Position numbers and translations under genes: made by a program. A stretch of 64,000 nucleotides of DNA from Gemmatimonadaceae bacterium (GTDB lineage: Bacteria; Gemmatimonadota; Gemmatimonadetes; Gemmatimonadales; Gemmatimonadaceae), in the NCBI GenBank assembly GCA_020846935.1, contig JADLCY010000006.1, forward strand, positions 1 through 64,000, written 5' to 3'. Positions 6,926 through 16,472 of this stretch are shown here, one piece after another. Every line of letters starts with the position of its first letter. Within the stretch, counting starts at the first letter, position 1. Below the pieces are notes generated by a model, which had not been told where the DNA came from, did not search any database, and saw only the letters and a list, made by a program, of their open reading frames with translations.

Positions 6926-9556
6926 TCAGGCAGTCAACAGGGTGGCGAGGCGAGTCATCACGGCCGCCAGGTCCACCTTCTGGTCGATGACGGCGCGCAC
7001 GGGGTCGGCACCGAGCGTGGTCATGCGATCGACCGCCGTTCGGATGGTGTAGCGTCGAGGGTCGAGATCCTGGTTGACCTCGTCCCAGGTGAGGGGCATG
7101 GACACGGTTGCGCCGGGGAGGGGTCGCACGCTGAAGGGAGAGACGATGAGCTGCCCATGGCGGTTCTGCAGGTAATCGAGGTACACCTTGTCGCCGCGGC
7201 GTGTGACGTGACGCGTGATGGTCGTGATGTCACCCAGCTCGCGGATGACGAGCCGCGCCAGCAGCTCGCCGAGGGTGCGGCTCTGCTCGTACGTGCATTG
7301 CAGGCCGAGGGGGATCATGATGTGCAGGCCGGTCTTGCCGGTGGTCTTGATGTAGTCCGGCAGCCCCAGCTCACCACAGAGACGATGCAGGACCAGCGCC
7401 GTCTTCACGACGTCGGAGAACGGGGCATCCTTGGGGTCGAGGTCGATCACGCACCAGTCGGGACGTTCCAGCGACTCGACACGACTCATCCAGATGTGCA
7501 GCGGGATCGTGCCGCTGTTGGCGAGGTACACGACGCCATCGACGTCGTCACAGACGAAGTACTGGATGAAGCGATTGGTGTCGCTGCTCCAGATGGGCAC
7601 CGTGCGCATCCACTCCGGCGCGAACTCGGGTGCATCCTTCTGGTAGAACGACTTGCCGTCGATGCCGTCGGGGAATCGGGTGAGCACCACGGGTCGATCG
7701 CGCAGGTAGGGGAGCAGCCAGGGGGCGATGGCGCGGTAGTACTCGATGAGGTCGCCCTTGGTGTACTTCTCCGCCGGCCAGAAGACCTTCTTTGGATTGG
7801 AGATGTTCACGGCGCGCGACACCACGCGCGGCGGCAGGTGCGGATCGTGGTCGAGCGCACCATCGGACGTTGTGTCGGGCGCTGTCGTCTGCGGTGTCGC
7901 TGCCGCGCCGTTCGATGCGCCGCCATCGACGTGGCGCCAGTCCTGCCGTTCGCAGTCGTGCGGCCGTTTGTCGTCGCGCAAGCGGAGGAATGCAGGATGG
8001 CGCAGTACGCCGTCCGGCGTCCACTCGGTGTATCGCACCTCGCAGACGTGGCGCGGCTCCACCCAGGTCGTGGAGGCGGTGTCCGGAATCGCCGTCGAGG
8101 GGAGAGGAGGTTCGCCTCGTGCACGCACGGGTCCAAAGCAGGGCGGCGCGTCGCGGATGTCGGGCGTGAGCATGGCGTGGATCTCGTGCAGCGCCCGGTC
8201 CGTGAACCCGGTGCCCGCGCGACCGGTGTACACGAGGGCGCCGTCCACGTAGTCGGCGAGTTGCAGTGCGCCAAAGCCGGTGCGGCTTCCCTGCGGGGCT
8301 GTGAACCCGACGACCACGAAATCCCCGGAGTTCTGCGCCTTGATCTTGAGCCACTGGCTGCTGCGCCCGGCGCGGTAGGGCGCGTCCGCGCGCTTGGCGA
8401 CGATGCCCTCGAGGCCCATCGTGCCGACCTGGGCGAGCATGGCTTCGCCCTGCGTTTCGATGTGTTCGAGGTACCGTACGGCGCCGACCGGCGGGAGCGC
8501 GCGCTGCAGGAACGCCTTGCGTCTGACGAGGGTGAGGTCGCGCAGGTCCATCTGTTCGAACCCGAGGAGGTCAAACACGTAGAAGGTCGTTGGCAGCTCC
8601 ACCGCGAGCCGTCGAATGTCCGGCTCGCTGGTCAGGCTCCCGCGCTTCTGCAACAGGGAGAAGCTCGGCCGTCCCGCGGAGTCGAGCGCGACGATCTCGC
8701 CGTCCATCACGAACTGCTCGAAGGGCAGGGCACGCAACGCCCTGGCGACTTCTGGAAAGACGCGCGTGTAGTCGTTCCCGTTGCGCGTCATCAGGGTCAC
8801 CTCGCCCTTGTCCCGCGCGGCGAGCATGCGATAGCCGTCCATCTTGAGCTCGAAGATCCAGCCCTCGCGCGTGAACGCATCGTCACGCGGTTCGGCGAGC
8901 ATGACTTCAGCCGTGCGGAGCGTGACCGGCCCGGGCCGCGCCGCGCCTTCCACCTCCCGACGGAGTGCACTCGCGTCGGAGCGTCCGGTCTTCACCTCCT
9001 CGACGGTGAGTCCCGACAGGACGGACTCCTCGGGAAACTGGTCGCCCGGCGAACGAAGGTACGCGTCGCGCTCCTTGATGAAGAGCCAGTCCTTCTCGCT
9101 CTTCTTGATCTTCACGAGCGTCCACTTGCCCTTGAGCTTGTAGCCCTTGAGTTCGAAGAGGAGCTTCCCCTTCTCCAGTCCCTCGCGCCAGTCCTCGAGT
9201 GGCACCCACTCGCCGCGGTCCCAGACGATGACGCCGCCTGCGCCGTAGTTGCCCTCGGGAATCACACCCTCGAAGTCGGCGTACTCGAGCGGGTGGTCTT
9301 CCACTTTCACGGCGAGCCGCTTGTCGGCCTGGTCATACGACGGTCCGCGGGGCACGGCCCACGAGCGCAACACGCCGTCCATCTCGAGGCGGAGGTCGAA
9401 GTGCAGCTGACGCGCGGCGTGCTTGTGGACGACGAAGAGCCGGCCCGGGATCGCCGAAATGCTGCCGACGGGTTCCGGTGAGCGGTCGGCCGACCGCTTG
9501 GCCCGATAGGTGGCGAGGTGGTCGGCGGGTGGCGGTGTTTCGTCGTCCGGAGACAT
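6926..9556 (-). CDS. ligD: ATP-dependent DNA ligase D (NHEJ)
   Basis: This 876-residue three-domain enzyme repairs double-strand breaks with Ku. The order is phosphoesterase, ligase, polymerase, as in Pseudomonas and unlike mycobacteria. The 3'-phosphoesterase domain shows HKHAARQLHFDLRLE (His44, His46, His52, Asp54). The nucleotidyltransferase has FELKMDGYR, with the adenylated Lys at about 238. The primase-like domain (about 585 to the end) has NPKKVFWPAEKYTKGD, WCVIDLDPKD and TTGKTGLHIMIPL. The gene is divergent from ku across 160 bp. A TAGTAT hexamer ends 6 nt before the ATG, suggesting a leaderless transcript. It is followed by the CDF gene with 1 bp between. Confidence 0.96.
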   Translation of the reverse strand: MSPDDETPPPADHLATYRAKRSADRSPEPVGSISAIPGRLFVVHKHAARQLHFDLRLEMDGVLRSWAVPRGPSYDQADKRLAVKVEDHPLEYADFEGVIPEGNYGAGGVIVWDRGEWVPLEDWREGLEKGKLLFELKGYKLKGKWTLVKIKKSEKDWLFIKERDAYLRSPGDQFPEESVLSGLTVEEVKTGRSDASALRREVEGAARPGPVTLRTAEVMLAEPRDDAFTREGWIFELKMDGYRMLAARDKGEVTLMTRNGNDYTRVFPEVARALRALPFEQFVMDGEIVALDSAGRPSFSLLQKRGSLTSEPDIRRLAVELPTTFYVFDLLGFEQMDLRDLTLVRRKAFLQRALPPVGAVRYLEHIETQGEAMLAQVGTMGLEGIVAKRADAPYRAGRSSQWLKIKAQNSGDFVVVGFTAPQGSRTGFGALQLADYVDGALVYTGRAGTGFTDRALHEIHAMLTPDIRDAPPCFGPVRARGEPPLPSTAIPDTASTTWVEPRHVCEVRYTEWTPDGVLRHPAFLRLRDDKRPHDCERQDWRHVDGGASNGAAATPQTTAPDTTSDGALDHDPHLPPRVVSRAVNISNPKKVFWPAEKYTKGDLIEYYRAIAPWLLPYLRDRPVVLTRFPDGIDGKSFYQKDAPEFAPEWMRTVPIWSSDTNRFIQYFVCDDVDGVVYLANSGTIPLHIWMSRVESLERPDWCVIDLDPKDAPFSDVVKTALVLHRLCGELGLPDYIKTTGKTGLHIMIPLGLQCTYEQSRTLGELLARLVIRELGDITTITRHVTRRGDKVYLDYLQNRHGQLIVSPFSVRPLPGATVSMPLTWDEVNQDLDPRRYTIRTAVDRMTTLGADPVRAVIDQKVDLAAVMTRLATLLTA

Positions 9557-9716
9557 GGGGGAATACTATGGGCCGGAGACGCCATGTCGGGCCACGGGCG
9601 ACGCATCATCCCAGCGGCTTTGGTGCCGGACGAGGGGACGCCATACATTGGAAGCACTGCCTCGAGCCAGGGACCGCGCGGCGGCCCCACCCGTCCAATC
9701 GCCCACCGCCCGGACC

Positions 9717-10535
9717 ATGCCTGCCCGCTCAATCGGTACCGCCACCATCTCGTTCGGCCTCGTGTCCGTTCCGGTGAACGTGTATTCGTCCTCGGAGTCG
9801 CGGCAGAGCGTGTCGTTCAACATGCTGTCCAAGAAGTCGCTCACGCGAGTGAAGCAACAGTACATCGACCCGAAGACCAACGAGGTGGTGCCGCGTGAGG
9901 AGATGGTGAAGGGCTACGAGTTCGCGAAGGACCAGTACGTGGTGTTCACGCCCGAGGAACTGAAGGCCCTGGAGGAGAAGGCGACCGGGACGATCGACAT
10001 CGTCGAGTTCGTGCCGCTGGCCCGCGTGGACCGCGAGTACCTCGACAAGGTGTACTACGTGGGTCCGGACAAGGGCGGCGATCGCGCGTACCGGCTGCTC
10101 GCCAAGGCCCTCGAGGAAACGGGCAAGGCGGCGCTGGGACAATACGCGGCGCGTGGCCAGCAGCACCTCATACTCATCCGGCCGCGCAACGGCGTGCTGG
10201 TGATGGAGCAGCTCCATTACGCCGACGAGCTGCGCTCGACGTCGGAAGTGCCGGTCGGCGAGGGCGAGATCAAGCCGATGGAGCTCACGCTGGCCAAGCA
10301 GCTCATCGAGCAGACGTCCAACGAGGACTTCCAGCCCGAGAAGTACCGGGACACGGTGCGCGAGCGCGTGCTCGAGGCGATCAACCGCAAGGTGGACGGT
10401 CAGGAGATCACCGCCGAGGCGCCGCAGGACGGCGGCGGCAAGATCATCGACCTGATGGAAGCGCTCAAGGCGAGCCTTACGAAGCAGGGCGGCGCGGATA
10501 CGGGCGGCGAGGGAGGCGAGCGCAAGGCGTCGTGA
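9717..10535 (+). CDS. ku: Ku-type DNA end-binding protein
   Basis: This 272-residue bacterial Ku forms the homodimeric ring that loads on broken DNA ends and recruits LigD. It opens with the family hallmark MPARSIGTATISFGLVSVPV. The core contains LSKKSLTRVKQQYIDPKT, and the tail is charged. The ATG at 9717 is chosen because the longer open frame upstream has no conserved residues and lies in the ligD/ku divergent gap. Its stop overlaps the GTG of the DUF72 gene (GTGA), so the two are translationally coupled. Adjacency to ligD gives the complete minimal NHEJ pair. Confidence 0.96.
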   Translation: MPARSIGTATISFGLVSVPVNVYSSSESRQSVSFNMLSKKSLTRVKQQYIDPKTNEVVPREEMVKGYEFAKDQYVVFTPEELKALEEKATGTIDIVEFVPLARVDREYLDKVYYVGPDKGGDRAYRLLAKALEETGKAALGQYAARGQQHLILIRPRNGVLVMEQLHYADELRSTSEVPVGEGEIKPMELTLAKQLIEQTSNEDFQPEKYRDTVRERVLEAINRKVDGQEITAEAPQDGGGKIIDLMEALKASLTKQGGADTGGEGGERKAS

Positions 10536-11251
10536 AGGTTCTCGTCGGCACGTCTGGGTTTGCCTTCAAGGAGTGGAAGGGCCCGTTCTATCCGGAAGAC
10601 CTGCGGGACGATGACATGTTGCGCCACTACGGGACGCGATTCCCGACGGTGGAGATCAACAACACGTTCTATCGTCTGCCCCGGGAGTCGGTGCTGCTGG
10701 AGTGGGTATCGCAGGTACCGGCCGGGTTCACCTTCTCCATCAAGGCGTCGCAGCGCATCACGCACTACGCGCGACTCAAGGAGGAGTCGGCGGCGAGTCC
10801 GCTCGAGTTCCTGCTGCGCAATTGCGAAGTCATGGGCGACCGGCTGGGCGTGATCCTCTTCCAGTGTCCGCCAAACCTGAAGAAGGATCTGCCACGCCTG
10901 CAGCGGTTCTGTGACCTCCTCCCGGCGGGTCGTCGCTTTGCCTTCGAGTTCCGGAACGGGGAGTGGTATTCGGACGACGTGATCGCAGAGCTGCGCGGCC
11001 GCAACCTCGCGCTCGTGGTGAGCGACAGCGAGGAGTTCTCGGGCCCGATGATACCGACCGCGGACTGGGGATACGCACGGCTCCACCGGTTCGACTACGA
11101 CGACAATGCGTTAGGTACGTGGGCCCGTCGCATTGCCGACGAGCCGTGGCGGGAGACGTTCGTGTTCTTCAAGCACGACTACTCGCCGTTCACGGGGCCA
11201 CCGGCGGTGGCTGGCTTCACCGACGCACTTCCCGCGTCGGCGAGGGAGTGA
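10532..11251 (+). CDS. DUF72 (YecE-like) protein
   Basis: This 239-residue protein of the DUF72/YecE family, a TIM-barrel fold, has no firmly established activity. Recognisable segments are the start VLVGTSGFAFKEWKGPFYP, the VEINNTFYRLP strand, FTFSIKASQRITH, and FAFEFRNGEWY. Translation starts at GTG 10532, inside the ku stop, and the gene ends in the same GTGA fashion into the polymerase gene. It is therefore the middle cistron of a ku-DUF72-polB operon, and the association suggests a role in nucleic-acid metabolism. Leu-Gly near the C-terminus is encoded by TTAGGT, one of the GTTAGG motifs. Confidence 0.9.
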   Translation: MKVLVGTSGFAFKEWKGPFYPEDLRDDDMLRHYGTRFPTVEINNTFYRLPRESVLLEWVSQVPAGFTFSIKASQRITHYARLKEESAASPLEFLLRNCEVMGDRLGVILFQCPPNLKKDLPRLQRFCDLLPAGRRFAFEFRNGEWYSDDVIAELRGRNLALVVSDSEEFSGPMIPTADWGYARLHRFDYDDNALGTWARRIADEPWRETFVFFKHDYSPFTGPPAVAGFTDALPASARE

Positions 11252-13602
11252 GCGGCGCGCGCGCGTTGCCCATCGAGGACGAGTGGCTCTGGGGCTGGGA
11301 TCAGACCCCGGGCATCGTGTCGGTGTGGGCCACGCTGGACGGTCGGGCCTGGGTCTGGCGTCGCGACCTCGCCGACGGATCGCTGCATCGGGAGCACGTG
11401 CGCTTTCGCCCGTGGCTGCTGCTGGACCGGCTCGACGATCTCACCCACCTCGGATCGACTCTTGGCCCCGAAGGCGGTGAGGCGCCGGTGACATGGCGCG
11501 AACTCGATGGGCCCGGCGAGCTGCGCTTTCTCGTGAGCGCCGCCGATGGACGCGTGCTTCGCGACGAGGTGCTGCAGGGCGCGTCGCGCCGAGTCGGACA
11601 GCGCGTGGGCCGGCTGCGCGACGTTGGCGCCGATCGTGTCCTGAGCCTGCCGCCGGACGAGCAGTACCTCGTTGCCACGGGGCGCACCTACTTTCGCGAC
11701 CTGCCGTTCGAGCGGCTGCGCCGGCTTCAGCTCGACCTCGAGACCGAGGGACTCGACGCGCGCCGGCACCGGATCTTCATGGTGGCGGTGCGCGACCCGT
11801 CGGGACAGGCCACGACCCTGGAGGTACAGGCGCCCGGAGACCGCGGCGAGGCCGACCTGCTGGCGCGGCTGGTCGCCGCGGTGCGCGAGGCCGACCCGGA
11901 CGTGATCGAGAACCACAACCTGCACGGGTTCGACCTGCCATTCCTCGAGCAGCGCGCCCGGCGACTCGGCGTGCGGCTCGCGTTAGGCAGGCTCGGCACG
12001 GGCCTCGTGTCCCGCGCGGCACGCCGCGGGGCCACGGGCGACGACGCCAGGCGCCGCACGCGACTCATCGCGCCCGGACGCGAACTGATCGACACGATGG
12101 ACGCCGTCCTGCGCCACGACTTCTCGGCGCGCGACCTGCCCGGCCACGGCCTCAAGGCCGTCGCCAGGCACTTCGGACTTGCCGGCCCGGATCGGGTGGT
12201 GATCCGCGGCGACCGGATCGCCGAGGTCTATCGCAGCGACCCGGCACTCGTCAGGCGCTACGCCATCGCGGACGTGGAGGAGGTGGAGGGGCTGGCCCGG
12301 GTGCTCGGTGGCGCCGCGTTTGCCCTCGCCCGCATGGCGCCCAGGCGCTACGAACGCCTGGCCGACGCCGGCGCGGCAACAGGCGTGATCGACCCGCTGC
12401 TCGTGCGCGCGTACCTGCGCGCCGGGGCCGCGCTTCCTGCGCACCGCGAGGGACGATCCGACGCGCACACGGGCGCAGCGCTCCACCTGTTTGCGACCGG
12501 GGTCGCGTCGCGCGTCGTGAAGGCGGACGTCGCGAGTCTCTATCCGTCGTTGATGCGGGCATGGCGCATCGGGCCCGCACGTGATCACCTCGGCGCAATG
12601 CTCACGCTGGTCGACCGCCTGGTCGAGCGTCGACTGCAGGAGAAGGCGGCTGCCCGCCAGCATCCCGCGGGGTCCGCGGCGCGTCATACACACGAGGCCA
12701 CCTCTGCCGCAATGAAGATCGTGGTGAACTCGGCCTACGGGTACCTCGCCGCGGGCGGTGGGCTCACGCGGTTTGCGGACGTCGACGCGGCCAACGAGGT
12801 GACGCGCCGCGGGCGCGAGACGCTCGACCTCATGTGTCGCGAACTCGCGACGCGGGGCGTCACCCTGCTGGAGGCCGACACCGACGGCGTGTACTTCGCG
12901 GTGCCGGCTGAGTGGACGGAGGCCGACGAACGCCGCGTCGTTGCCGAAGTGGCTGCGCTCTTCCCGCGACTGGTGCAACTCGAGTTCGAGGGGCGCTACC
13001 GCGCCATGCTTTCGCACGAACCCAAGAACTACGCACTGCTCGGCTACGACGGCACGCTGACGCTGCGCGGCGTGGCGTTCCGATCGAGCCGCGCCGAGCC
13101 ATTTGGTGAGACGTTCCTGCGGCGTGCCCTCGCCCGCCTGCTGGTCGAGGATGTTGCCGGCGTGCGCGACGTGTACCTGGAAACGGTCGACGCGCTGCGC
13201 GGCCGGGCGCTCGCGACGCGCGAGGTGTCATCGAGGGTGCGCCTGACGAGGACGCCCGGGCAGTACCAGGGCGCACGCGAGCGCCGCCGCGAGCTGGTGT
13301 ACGAAGCCCTGATCACGGCGGGCCGGGCGACCTGGCGGATCGGCGAACGCGTGCGCGTGTACCGCACCCGCGCGGGCGCCGGCGCGCTCGTGCCCGAGGA
13401 GGATGACGCCGACGCGCGCGACTACGATGTGGAGCACTACGTCGGCCAGCTGCGCGACACCTTTGCCGCGCGCCTTGCCCGCGCCTTCACCCCGGACGAC
13501 TTTGCCGCCGTCTTCGCCGACCCGGTGCAGCTCTCGCTCTTTGTGCGGGATCCCGCGCAGATCCGCCCGCTGCTGCGGGTGCTGTCGACGGGAACGCGTT
13601 AG
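11248..13602 (+). CDS. Family B DNA polymerase with 3'-5' exonuclease domain
   Basis: This 784-residue replicative-fold polymerase is almost the length of E. coli Pol II. The proofreading domain is intact: Exo I DLETEGLD (Asp163, Glu165), Exo II NHNLHGFDLPF (Asp229) and Exo III YAIADVEEV (Asp342). Polymerase motifs are A DVASLYPS (Asp427), B KIVVNSAYGY (490-499) and C ADTDGVYF (Asp544, Asp546), followed by KNYALLGYDG. All catalytic residues are present. Translation starts at GTG 11248, within the DUF72 stop. The operon with ku suggests a repair or damage-tolerance role at broken ends, but this is inferred. The 3' end overlaps the convergent helicase gene by 4 bp, with stop TAG inside a CGTTAGGC motif. 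Confidence 0.93.
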   Translation: MSGARALPIEDEWLWGWDQTPGIVSVWATLDGRAWVWRRDLADGSLHREHVRFRPWLLLDRLDDLTHLGSTLGPEGGEAPVTWRELDGPGELRFLVSAADGRVLRDEVLQGASRRVGQRVGRLRDVGADRVLSLPPDEQYLVATGRTYFRDLPFERLRRLQLDLETEGLDARRHRIFMVAVRDPSGQATTLEVQAPGDRGEADLLARLVAAVREADPDVIENHNLHGFDLPFLEQRARRLGVRLALGRLGTGLVSRAARRGATGDDARRRTRLIAPGRELIDTMDAVLRHDFSARDLPGHGLKAVARHFGLAGPDRVVIRGDRIAEVYRSDPALVRRYAIADVEEVEGLARVLGGAAFALARMAPRRYERLADAGAATGVIDPLLVRAYLRAGAALPAHREGRSDAHTGAALHLFATGVASRVVKADVASLYPSLMRAWRIGPARDHLGAMLTLVDRLVERRLQEKAAARQHPAGSAARHTHEATSAAMKIVVNSAYGYLAAGGGLTRFADVDAANEVTRRGRETLDLMCRELATRGVTLLEADTDGVYFAVPAEWTEADERRVVAEVAALFPRLVQLEFEGRYRAMLSHEPKNYALLGYDGTLTLRGVAFRSSRAEPFGETFLRRALARLLVEDVAGVRDVYLETVDALRGRALATREVSSRVRLTRTPGQYQGARERRRELVYEALITAGRATWRIGERVRVYRTRAGAGALVPEEDDADARDYDVEHYVGQLRDTFAARLARAFTPDDFAAVFADPVQLSLFVRDPAQIRPLLRVLSTGTR

Positions 13603-16472
13603 GCGAGGCCCATTTCGACGAGAAACCGCCGATCGACGCGCGGCGAGTCGCCGCGCTGCTCGGCCCACGTCAGCACGAGCCGATCGATGGTGCGCGTCAT
13701 GCCCACGTACAGCAGGCGTCGCGCCTCGTCGACGTCGGCTTCGGAGCGCCGCTCGCTGCCGCCCGGGAGCAGGTCATCATCGGCGACCCCGACCAGGTAA
13801 ACACGGGAGAACTCGAGTCCTTTGGTCGCGTGCAGCGTCAGCAGGTTCACACGGTCCTGGTCGGGCTCGGAGCCATCCCATCGGGACAGCACGACCGTCT
13901 CGAGGAAGCCTTCGAGTTGCGTGCTGAGTGGCGCCGCAGGGTCGATGCCTTCGAGGAGTCGTCGGAGGCGCGCCATCGTCTCCGGGTAGCGGGAGTCTGC
14001 GTCCTTGTCGGCACGGACCTTCGCCATGAGCACAGCCCCGCCGAGCAGGTCGATGAGTCGCGGCGTGTCGGGCGAGCCTGCGTCGCCGGCGCGCTCGCGC
14101 TCGTACGCCTCGAGCGCCGAGCTGTACTTGCCGAACGCAAAGATGCGCACGACGTCGAACAACGCTACGCCTTCGGAGCTGCGATCTGGCGTGAGCGCGA
14201 GCCCGATCGCGAGGTGATCGAGCAGGTTGGTGAGCGCCGTCTTGCGCGCTCTTGCGAGCTTGAGCTCGTTGAGTCGCTGAAAGACCTGGGCGAGCGCGAC
14301 GGTGTCGTCCAGCGCGCGATGGCTGGCGCCGGCGTCGATGCCGAAGGCGTGAGCGAGTTCCGACAGCGAGCGACTGCCTGCGTGCAGCTCGCGCGCGAGC
14401 GGGAGGCTGTCGAAGGGCGTGAGGGAAAGAGGTTCACCGATGCCTTCCACGTGGCGGCGCAGCAGCGGAAAGTCGTAGCCGTGACCGTTGTGTGCGACGA
14501 CCACATCCCGCCCGATGAAGTCACGCAGGGACGGCCACACGTCGGCGAAACTCGGCGCGTCCGCCACCATCGCGTCCGTGATGTGGTGAATGCGCGTCGA
14601 GTCCGGCGGGATCGGCGTGCCCGGATTCACCAGCGACTGGAAGCGATCCACCACCGCGCCATTGCGAACGCGGACCGCCGCCAGCTCGATGATGCGCGCG
14701 TCGCCGATCACGCGGCTCGTGGCCTCGATATCAAACGCGGTGAAGTCGGCAAAGATGTTGGTGAACTCGCGCGTCGCCAGGAGTTGCAGTGCCTTGAACA
14801 GCCCGAGGGCGGCGCCGAGCGATGGTACCGCGTCGCGGTCGATGAGGAGCGGACCGCTCGGGTGGGGCCGGTCGAGCAGGAGCCCCGGTTGGGCGGCGCG
14901 CAGCATGTTGCGCAGCGCGTATTCGATGCCACCCATCGGCGCAAACGCAACCGGCCGACCGCAAGCGATCGCGTCGGAGAGCGCGCTGGCGAGCGCCACG
15001 ACTTCCGGGTTGGCGGCCGGATCGGTCCACTCATCATGCCGGTCCTCGATCACCGATCGATATTCGCCGACCCGCTGCGAAAGGAGCTCGTGCACCAGGA
15101 GTTCCAGCCGATGGTGACGCCGGGCCAGCGTCGCGAGGTTCTGCAGTTCGACGCGACCGCGCCGGATGCGGCGGGCATCTTCGGATCCCTTCGGGCGCTC
15201 GCGAGCGATCTGTTCCAGCTGCGCCAGCACGTCGTTGTCGCGAGCATCGGCGCGCGTGAGCGCCTCGGCGAACAAGGTGCCCGGCAGCACCACGCGCATG
15301 AACTCCGCTTCCCGCACGACGTCGTTGGGTTGCGCGATCACCTTGAGCGCCGCGATGAGGTAGCCCACCACCGGGTCGTCGCTCAGCGCGCGACCCTGCG
15401 CCATGCGACACGGCACGTCGGCGCGCAGGAACTCGGCTTCGAGCGCGCTCCCCATCGGGTTCGTGCGATAGAGCACGGCCACCTGACCCCAGCCCAGAGC
15501 ATGCGTCTCGCGATCACGCTGGATGTCCTCGAGCAGCCAGGCGGCCTCGGCGGCGTCGTTGCTGAAGCGACGCACCTCGACGTCGAACGGCGATGTGTGC
15601 GACGTGTCAACCGCGCGTGGCTCGTCAAAGAGCGAGGCGTTCTGCTTCATGAGCGCCCGCCCCAGCGCGACGACCTGACTCGGGCTGCGTCGGTTCTCCC
15701 GCAGCGTGACCCGCTGATGAACGCCGAAGGTGTTGGCGAAGGTGAGAAACACCTTCGGGTCCGCCCCGGCCCACGAGTAGATCGACTGTTCATCGTCGCC
15801 GACGCCGAACACGTTGCCGTGTGATTTGACGAGGGCGTGCACGATGTCGAACTGCACCGGGTTCAGATCCTGGAACTCATCGACGAGCACATAGTCGAAT
15901 CGATCGGCGACGAGTGACCCAACCTGCGGGTGGCCCATGGCGGCGGCGGCCTTGATGACCAGCGTATCAAAGTCGACGACGTTGCGACGTTCGAGGTATT
16001 GCTCGTACTTGCGTAGCTTGCGCGCATCGTCGTCGCCCAGGGCCTTGCCCTGAAAGCGCGCCTGGGAGATGCGCGACAGAAGCCCTTTCTGGAAGCGCGA
16101 CGGCGTACCGAGGCGACTGAACACGGCGCGCTGATAGTCCTCGTCGGCAATGCCGAACCCGCGCCGGAGGCCAACCTGTGCCCCGTGATCGCGCAGGAGC
16201 TTCGCGCAGAACGCGTGAATCGTCCCGCTCCAGACCAGCCCGGAGCGCTCGCCGAGCCCGGACAGGCGATGCGCAATCTCTCCGGCGGCTTTGTTGGTGA
16301 ACGTGAAGGCGCAGATGCGCTCGGGATCAAAGCCGCGCTGGCTGATCAGGAAGCGGATGCGCTCGATGAGGCAGAAGGTCTTGCCCGCTCCGGGCCCGGC
16401 GACCACCAGCACGGGTCCGAGCGGCGCTTCGATGGCCTGGCGCTGATCGGCGGAGGGAATTGGGGCTGCCAC
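13599..16472 (-). CDS. UvrD/Rep-family helicase with internal DEDDh exonuclease domain
   Basis: This is a 957-residue superfamily 1A helicase. Motif I is GPGAGKT (26-32), motif II DEFQD (198-202), motif III GVGDDEQSIYSWAGAD, motif IV TLRENRRS (256-263), motif V LLTLHATKGLEF (877-888) and motif VI LLYVGMTR (920-927). Between motifs IV and V, at about residues 575-735, sits a complete epsilon/DnaQ-like exonuclease: Exo I FDIEATS (Asp581, Glu583), Exo II AHNGHGYDF (Asp667) and Exo III SHRALDDT (His718, Asp722). The embedded domain is in frame with all catalytic residues, so it is a true fusion. The GTG start is followed by MAAPIPSADQRQAI, the Q-motif region. The gene converges on the polB gene. 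Confidence 0.93.
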   Translation of the reverse strand: MAAPIPSADQRQAIEAPLGPVLVVAGPGAGKTFCLIERIRFLISQRGFDPERICAFTFTNKAAGEIAHRLSGLGERSGLVWSGTIHAFCAKLLRDHGAQVGLRRGFGIADEDYQRAVFSRLGTPSRFQKGLLSRISQARFQGKALGDDDARKLRKYEQYLERRNVVDFDTLVIKAAAAMGHPQVGSLVADRFDYVLVDEFQDLNPVQFDIVHALVKSHGNVFGVGDDEQSIYSWAGADPKVFLTFANTFGVHQRVTLRENRRSPSQVVALGRALMKQNASLFDEPRAVDTSHTSPFDVEVRRFSNDAAEAAWLLEDIQRDRETHALGWGQVAVLYRTNPMGSALEAEFLRADVPCRMAQGRALSDDPVVGYLIAALKVIAQPNDVVREAEFMRVVLPGTLFAEALTRADARDNDVLAQLEQIARERPKGSEDARRIRRGRVELQNLATLARRHHRLELLVHELLSQRVGEYRSVIEDRHDEWTDPAANPEVVALASALSDAIACGRPVAFAPMGGIEYALRNMLRAAQPGLLLDRPHPSGPLLIDRDAVPSLGAALGLFKALQLLATREFTNIFADFTAFDIEATSRVIGDARIIELAAVRVRNGAVVDRFQSLVNPGTPIPPDSTRIHHITDAMVADAPSFADVWPSLRDFIGRDVVVAHNGHGYDFPLLRRHVEGIGEPLSLTPFDSLPLARELHAGSRSLSELAHAFGIDAGASHRALDDTVALAQVFQRLNELKLARARKTALTNLLDHLAIGLALTPDRSSEGVALFDVVRIFAFGKYSSALEAYERERAGDAGSPDTPRLIDLLGGAVLMAKVRADKDADSRYPETMARLRRLLEGIDPAAPLSTQLEGFLETVVLSRWDGSEPDQDRVNLLTLHATKGLEFSRVYLVGVADDDLLPGGSERRSEADVDEARRLLYVGMTRTIDRLVLTWAEQRGDSPRVDRRFLVEMGLA

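Follow-up and report, generated by a model that had tools for sequence, protein, structure and literature searches.

Bacterial NHEJ is usually described as the work of Ku and LigD, and little is known of accessory end-processing enzymes. SF1A motors such as those of UvrD, PcrA and Rep move 3'-5', and their 2B subdomain contacts the duplex, swivels, and controls unwinding by UvrD and Rep. DEDDh enzymes, which include the proofreading exonucleases DnaQ/epsilon and PolC, cut 3'-5' with two metals. In AddAB, RecBCD and AdnAB, a UvrD-like motor and a nuclease are brought together in one enzyme of two or more subunits, the nuclease being a C-terminal PD-(D/E)XK domain. WRN combines a RecQ-type (SF2) 3'-5' helicase with an N-terminal 3'-5' exonuclease of the DEDD superfamily and is linked to Ku, which stimulates the exonuclease (PMC4831024). 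ExoDinG enzymes (SaDinG and B. subtilis DinG) likewise hold a helicase and a DEDD-type exonuclease in one chain (PMC12345164, PMC11981726), with an SF2/XPD-like 5'-3' motor and the exonuclease at the N-terminus. In Gabija, the helicase GajB is accompanied by an adjacent OLD-family nuclease, GajA.

Here we describe a protein, P0001, that belongs to none of AddAB/RecBCD, ExoDinG, WRN and Gabija, since in each case a defining feature that we tested is missing. It is encoded in a stretch of 64,000 nucleotides from a Gemmatimonadaceae bacterium (contig JADLCY010000006.1, positions 1 to 64,000), hereafter the window. Like AddAB/RecBCD/AdnAB, P0001 pairs a UvrD-like motor with a nuclease, but the nuclease is a DEDDh domain inside 2B. 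No PD-(D/E)XK (PF12705-type) domain was found in P0001, and its genome gave no PF12705 or RecC match that would point to an AddB/RecC/AdnA partner subunit; nor did a candidate partner recur beside its orthologs. Unlike ExoDinG, it has a UvrD (SF1) motor and an internal exonuclease, and its homology to WRN is limited to the exonuclease superfamily and the general helicase core, so that the likeness to WRN would be a functional one. Whereas GajB adjoins GajA, the neighbors of P0001 on one side are PolB, DUF72, Ku and LigD, and the two genes on the other side had no NCBIfam nuclease match. By analogy, P0001 may work like WRN or like AddAB/RecBCD (AddA) while being a member of neither. UvrD-class helicases and DEDDh exonucleases are both well known; what is new is a DEDDh domain inserted in UvrD 2B, and the related forms in Bacteroidota and Clostridia are uncharacterized. 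A literature search, which had most subscription papers outside its reach, turned up no description of a UvrD with an exonuclease inserted in its 2B.

A DEDDh exonuclease within the 2B subdomain of a UvrD-type helicase

The gene for P0001 lies at positions 13599..16472 on the (-) strand of the window and encodes 957 amino acids from a GTG start. We confirmed that the product is an SF1A helicase of the UvrD/PcrA type whose 2B contains an entire DEDDh exonuclease. Pfam recognized UvrD-helicase at residues 8-249 (PF00580, E 6e-60), the RNase_T exonuclease at 579-731 (PF00929, E 2e-26) and UvrD_C at 828-939 (PF13361, E 9e-31). The SF1A motifs AGPGAGKT, TFTNKAA, LVDEFQD, VGDDEQSIYSWAGA, LRENRRS, LLTLHATKGLEFSRV and EARRLLYVGMTR follow in order in a single frame, and their core residues are invariant or nearly so across 53 aligned sequences.

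The N-terminal part of the helicase (residues 8-386; 15315..16451, (-) strand) carries motifs I to IV and comprises 1A, 1B and the first half of 2A, with a phmmer match to UvrD/PcrA/Rep over residues 8-397. Residues 387-574 (14751..15314, (-) strand) contain the first half of 2B (387-~482), which has a weak structural match to UvrD 407-501, followed by a helical subdomain (~483-566). Next come the DEDDh (DnaQ/epsilon-like) exonuclease domain (residues 575-737; 14262..14750, (-) strand), the second half of 2B as aligned to E. coli UvrD (residues 738-850; 13923..14261, (-) strand), and the second half of 2A with motifs V and VI (residues 851-957; 13602..13922, (-) strand), which matches UvrD 530-618. 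Alignment to E. coli UvrD (EcUvrD, from MG1655) shows that the exonuclease interrupts 2B near its middle, after EcUvrD residue ~449-456, and so falls between motifs IV and V. The preliminary description had read a complete set of SF1A motifs in one frame and a full epsilon-like exonuclease between motifs IV and V, and both readings were borne out, the former by the motif reading, Pfam and the 53-sequence alignment, the latter by Pfam and the alignments to DnaQ and EcUvrD.

When the sequence was compared with those of solved structures, residues 8-397 and 852-940 came closest to UvrD, PcrA and Rep, and residues 575-737 to PolC/epsilon exonucleases, the best being the PolC exonuclease 2p1j and epsilon. 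Among NCBIfam models, the helicase halves score highest with those for PcrA/UvrD/Rep; the pcrA score of 288.7 bits does not reach the curated cut-off of 911.2, which on this measure makes P0001 a relative, not an ortholog, of PcrA/UvrD/Rep proper. All motifs and the 1A/1B/2A/2B layout are common to these helicases and P0001, but the 2B of P0001 is roughly three times larger, owing to the inserted exonuclease and the extra helical subdomain. Two further UvrD/PcrA paralogs are encoded in the window's genome.

The DEDDh set (DxE, D, HxxxxD) is present in DnaQ register. Alignment to E. coli DnaQ identified the catalytic residues, all on the (-) strand, as Asp581 (DnaQ D12; 14730..14732), Glu583 (E14; 14724..14726), Asp667 (D103; 14472..14474), His718 (H162; 14319..14321) and Asp723 (D167; 14304..14306). 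The first four agree with the earlier reading, which had placed the last aspartate one residue early, at Asp722; we assign it to Asp723 because DnaQ D167 aligns there and because D723 is invariant, whereas D722 is kept in 49 of the 53 aligned family sequences. All five residues are invariant in a 40-row ortholog alignment, which argues against a chance fusion. A chance open reading frame or an assembly fusion was ruled out by full-length orthologs from dozens of genera, which keep both the domain order and the catalytic residues. The fold and all five catalytic residues are thus those of the DnaQ/epsilon and PolC proofreading exonucleases, but the domain is nested in a helicase and not paired with a polymerase.

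Predicted structure

An AlphaFold2 model of P0001, built on a 40-sequence family alignment, had a mean pLDDT of 86.5 and a pTM of 0.68. The 1A/1B/2A/2B fold was found in the model, and the whole chain matched Rep (Z 38.7), D. radiodurans UvrD and PcrA, all within Z 36-39, with AdnB, AddA and RecB among its further structural neighbors. Residues 576-736 of the model superimposed on epsilon (1j53) with a Z of 23.6 and a deviation of 1.5 A across 160 residues, indicating an RNase H-like DnaQ fold. In the model, the insert folds as a DnaQ unit inside 2B, and with the catalytic residues in DnaQ register we found neither an unfolded insert nor residues displaced from an active site.

The extra helical subdomain (residues ~483-566; window 14775-15026) precedes the exonuclease, and Gly515, Lys560 and Gln563 within it are invariant. 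It is found in Gemmatimonadota orthologs and is missing from the aligned sequences of other lineages. The window's own sequence gave no Pfam match in this subdomain, for which matches were scattered and weak among PDB sequences and reached only Z about 5 in structural comparison.

Distribution of the helicase-exonuclease

When genome contigs were scanned, some 55 orthologs of full or almost full length came up at 44-62% identity, nearly all of them titled Gemmatimonadota. Orthologs at 43-62% identity keep both the helicase and the exonuclease catalytic sets. At a threshold of E below about 1e-70, about 69 of 298 Gemmatimonadota genomes are carriers. These belong to families f1 (27/103), f2 (38/65), f9 (three) and f3 (one), and no carriers were seen in families f4-f8, f10 and f11 among the same 298 genomes.

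Outside the phylum, too, there are UvrD proteins with a DEDDh domain at this position in 2B (~EcUvrD 449-456). Such proteins were found in Acetoanaerobium (P0002) and, with the same architecture, in Prevotella, Phocaeicola and Chryseobacterium among the Bacteroidota (examples are WP_004367753.1, WP_258920683.1, WP_181715756.1 and P0002); among 291 Clostridia genomes, one had a match over nearly the whole query (L095). Most of the Bacteroidota and Clostridia copies examined carry the RefSeq label "3'-5' exonuclease". This domain order is therefore not unique to the window's genome. In contrast to P0001, the Bacteroidota and Clostridia proteins have no extra helical subdomain in the aligned sequences, and their helicase is closer to the PADLOC model RTasHel. 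In a tree of the helicase with the exonuclease removed, the Gemmatimonadota and the Bacteroidota/Clostridia sets were placed apart; an AU test of one clade gave a borderline p of 0.0496, with long branches present. The Bacteroidota/Clostridia fusion is possibly a second, separate insertion at the same site.

Several observations were made on individual copies. Bacteroidota UvrD-exonuclease proteins (L115-L118) match almost the entire PADLOC RT-associated helicase model. The Bacteroides fragilis copy (L119:5848-8587) is annotated as two overlapping open reading frames, one for the helicase and one for the exonuclease domain, perhaps through a frameshift; the Phocaeicola copy (L115), in a similar context, is a single open reading frame. 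The Acetoanaerobium replicon NZ_CP154629.1 (L088) is filed as a plasmid and, at 2.63 Mb, is probably a chromosome.

No phage record had a place covering 80% of the P0001 query, viral contigs gave plain UvrD-like matches or none, and plasmid matches were plain UvrDs apart from the Bacteroidota/Clostridia form. A phage or plasmid origin was rejected on these searches.

The gene recurs beside DUF72, Ku and LigD

Downstream of the helicase gene, the window encodes a family B polymerase (PolB; 10963-13602, (+) strand), a DUF72 protein (10532..11251, (+) strand; PF01904, E 9e-55), Ku (9510..10535, (+) strand; TIGR02772, E 1e-82) and LigD with phosphoesterase, ligase and primase-polymerase domains (6926..9556, (-) strand). 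Among 52 loci compared, the helicase-exonuclease gene, DUF72 and Ku stand in the same order and orientation in 14, and LigD is also present in 12 of those 14; most of the 52 show no Ku beside the gene, many flanks being too short to tell whether Ku adjoins. DUF72, which separates the helicase gene from Ku elsewhere too, varies in offset from +36 to +4184 bases, and the DUF72-Ku arrangement persists at 48% protein identity (L043). A hand comparison of positions showed that, of the 37 carriers with Ku, 13 have it on the contig of the helicase gene and no more than 10 kb from it, covering about 10 genera and two families. Crude six-frame clustering of the neighbors made no other family of comparable breadth evident.

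The neighbors named in the preliminary description, LigD, Ku, DUF72 and the polymerase, were thus all confirmed, and the NHEJ neighborhood was found to recur in other genera, but a partnership with PolB was not supported. PolB adjoins the gene in the window only; in another locus (L010) it is 6.6 kb away, and the nearest relatives, L008 and L056, have no PolB next to the gene, for which reason we rejected it as a partner. The PolB and helicase genes are convergent, with overlapping stop codons, and the polymerase and exonuclease motifs of PolB (LDLET, NHNLHGFD, DVASLYP, EADTDG) are apparently intact. The first ~100 codons of its open reading frame overlap DUF72, and its true start is therefore probably near 11260. 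The annotated stretches around the Bacteroidota relatives contained no Ku or LigD, which means that the architecture as such can occur apart from NHEJ genes.

Distribution relative to Ku and to AddAB/RecBCD

Co-occurrence was examined in a hand-picked sample of 40 carriers and 40 non-carriers from families f1 and f2, with complete genomes preferred; several tests were run on the same data and the p-values are uncorrected. Ku was present in 37/40 carriers and 21/40 non-carriers (p 1e-4, a value that ignores relatedness), or, by family, in 19/20 against 6/20 in f1 and 18/20 against 15/20 in f2; the difference comes from f1 and is not clear in f2. Stratified by genus, the association was not significant (p 0.22, with only 2 informative genera), and three of the 40 carriers have no Ku.

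These patterns bear on the possibility that P0001 serves replication or repair in general, as a helicase that carries a 3'-5' exonuclease of its own, either a PcrA/Rep-like accessory helicase or one of mismatch or excision repair, and that its NHEJ neighborhood is inherited gene order without functional meaning. The fading of the Ku association on genus stratification, the many loci with no Ku beside the gene and the best scores of the helicase halves with PcrA/UvrD/Rep models would all fit such an enzyme, and UvrD acts together with 3'-5' exonucleases in mismatch repair. However, the two further UvrD/PcrA paralogs in the genome could cover housekeeping, the form with the exonuclease occurs in roughly one in four genomes of the phylum, which is not the spread of an essential accessory helicase, and the DUF72-Ku-LigD order is kept even though DUF72 may begin anywhere from about 0.04 to 4.2 kb away. 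We regard a general housekeeping role as somewhat improbable, if a serious contender.

A RecC or AddAB-type nuclease was found in 3/40 carriers against 19/40 non-carriers (p 1e-4 ignoring relatedness; genus-stratified p 0.038), and the AddAB-type nuclease gave a genus-stratified p of 0.024 over all f1 and f2 genomes. AddAB-type nucleases were called by PF12705 at E < 1e-20, a family that also matches non-AddAB nucleases. Two carriers have RecC (G070 and G126), and one of the three carrier matches (G156) is a 375-aa open reading frame. Phylogeny partly confounds both this association and that with Ku. In several f1 genomes neither the helicase-exonuclease nor AddAB/RecBCD is present, and a number of Gemmatimonadaceae genomes of high completeness (for example G004, G024, G027, G030 and G064) show no helicase-exonuclease, no RecC and no strong AddAB-type nuclease. 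RecJ is present in the window's genome, which may therefore possess RecFOR-type resection.

The nearly exclusive distribution (genus-stratified p 0.02-0.04), together with AdnB, AddA and RecB among the structural neighbors of the whole chain, could also suggest a resection motor-nuclease that substitutes for AddAB/RecBCD in homologous recombination, its link to Ku being secondary. However, where one 3'-5' motor is combined with a 3'-5' exonuclease, 3' ends would be removed unless the enzyme is regulated, which is the opposite of producing 3' tails for RecA loading. No AddB/RecC-like partner gene was seen to recur in the neighborhood, both systems are missing from some genomes and RecC is present in two carriers, and we consider a recombination substitute unlikely.

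An anti-phage defense role, like that of GajB in Gabija or of the RT-associated UvrD-like helicase of DRT systems, is very improbable: P0001 matches the PADLOC models GajB and RTasHel, RTasHel matches extend along the entire relatives from Clostridia and Bacteroidota (435.9 bits for P0002) and a Prevotella plasmid copy (L118) lies in a defense-like cluster with VWA, PP2C and an FtsK/SspH-like gene, but the PADLOC matches of P0001 are generic UvrD matches that are split around the insert, the neighbors scanned included neither GajA nor a reverse transcriptase, the gene recurs across genera beside NHEJ genes, and no phage record holds a full-length relative.

Discussion

Our preferred reading, to which we give a probability of roughly one half, is that P0001 is a single-chain motor-exonuclease that processes DNA ends, its substrate being the end of a double-strand break. 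One chain holds an apparently intact and conserved SF1A motor and 3'-5' exonuclease. The earlier proposal that unwinding and 3'-end trimming are united in one chain holds for the motor and the exonuclease, as judged by motifs, fold and catalytic residues, while the activity and its coupling are inferred. From what its families do, the motor would move 3'-5' on single-stranded DNA and unwind the duplex contacted by 2B, and the exonuclease would use two metal ions to take nucleotides off a 3' end; the genome patterns point to a double-strand-break end as the putative substrate. The enzyme would unwind the end and trim damaged, mispaired or non-complementary 3' termini, which Ku and LigD could then align, fill and ligate, and it may take on some of the motor-nuclease work for which other genomes have AddAB or RecBCD. 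A motor that travels 3'-5' moves away from the 3' end of the strand it tracks, so that coupled digestion would need this strand to reach 2B; otherwise the exonuclease would act on a separate 3' end. It might thus cut the trailing 3' end of the tracked strand, as AddA/RecB nucleases do, or a free 3' end handed over by movement of 2B.

More tentatively, P0001 could be a bacterial functional counterpart of WRN, that is, a dedicated helicase-exonuclease working with Ku and LigD to clean or trim 3' ends in end joining. Such an enzyme would have arisen by insertion of a proofreading-type exonuclease into the mobile 2B of a UvrD helicase, an event possibly repeated in Bacteroidota/Clostridia. We hold this fuller account to be possible rather than probable.

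The geometry of a nuclease borne on 2B differs from that of the C-terminal nucleases of AddAB/RecBCD, and with the nuclease on a swiveling subdomain, trimming could be linked to the conformational switching of the motor. A conserved and apparently intact motor-exonuclease that recurs beside Ku and LigD, mostly in genomes without AddAB/RecBCD, represents a concrete candidate for an NHEJ end-processor.
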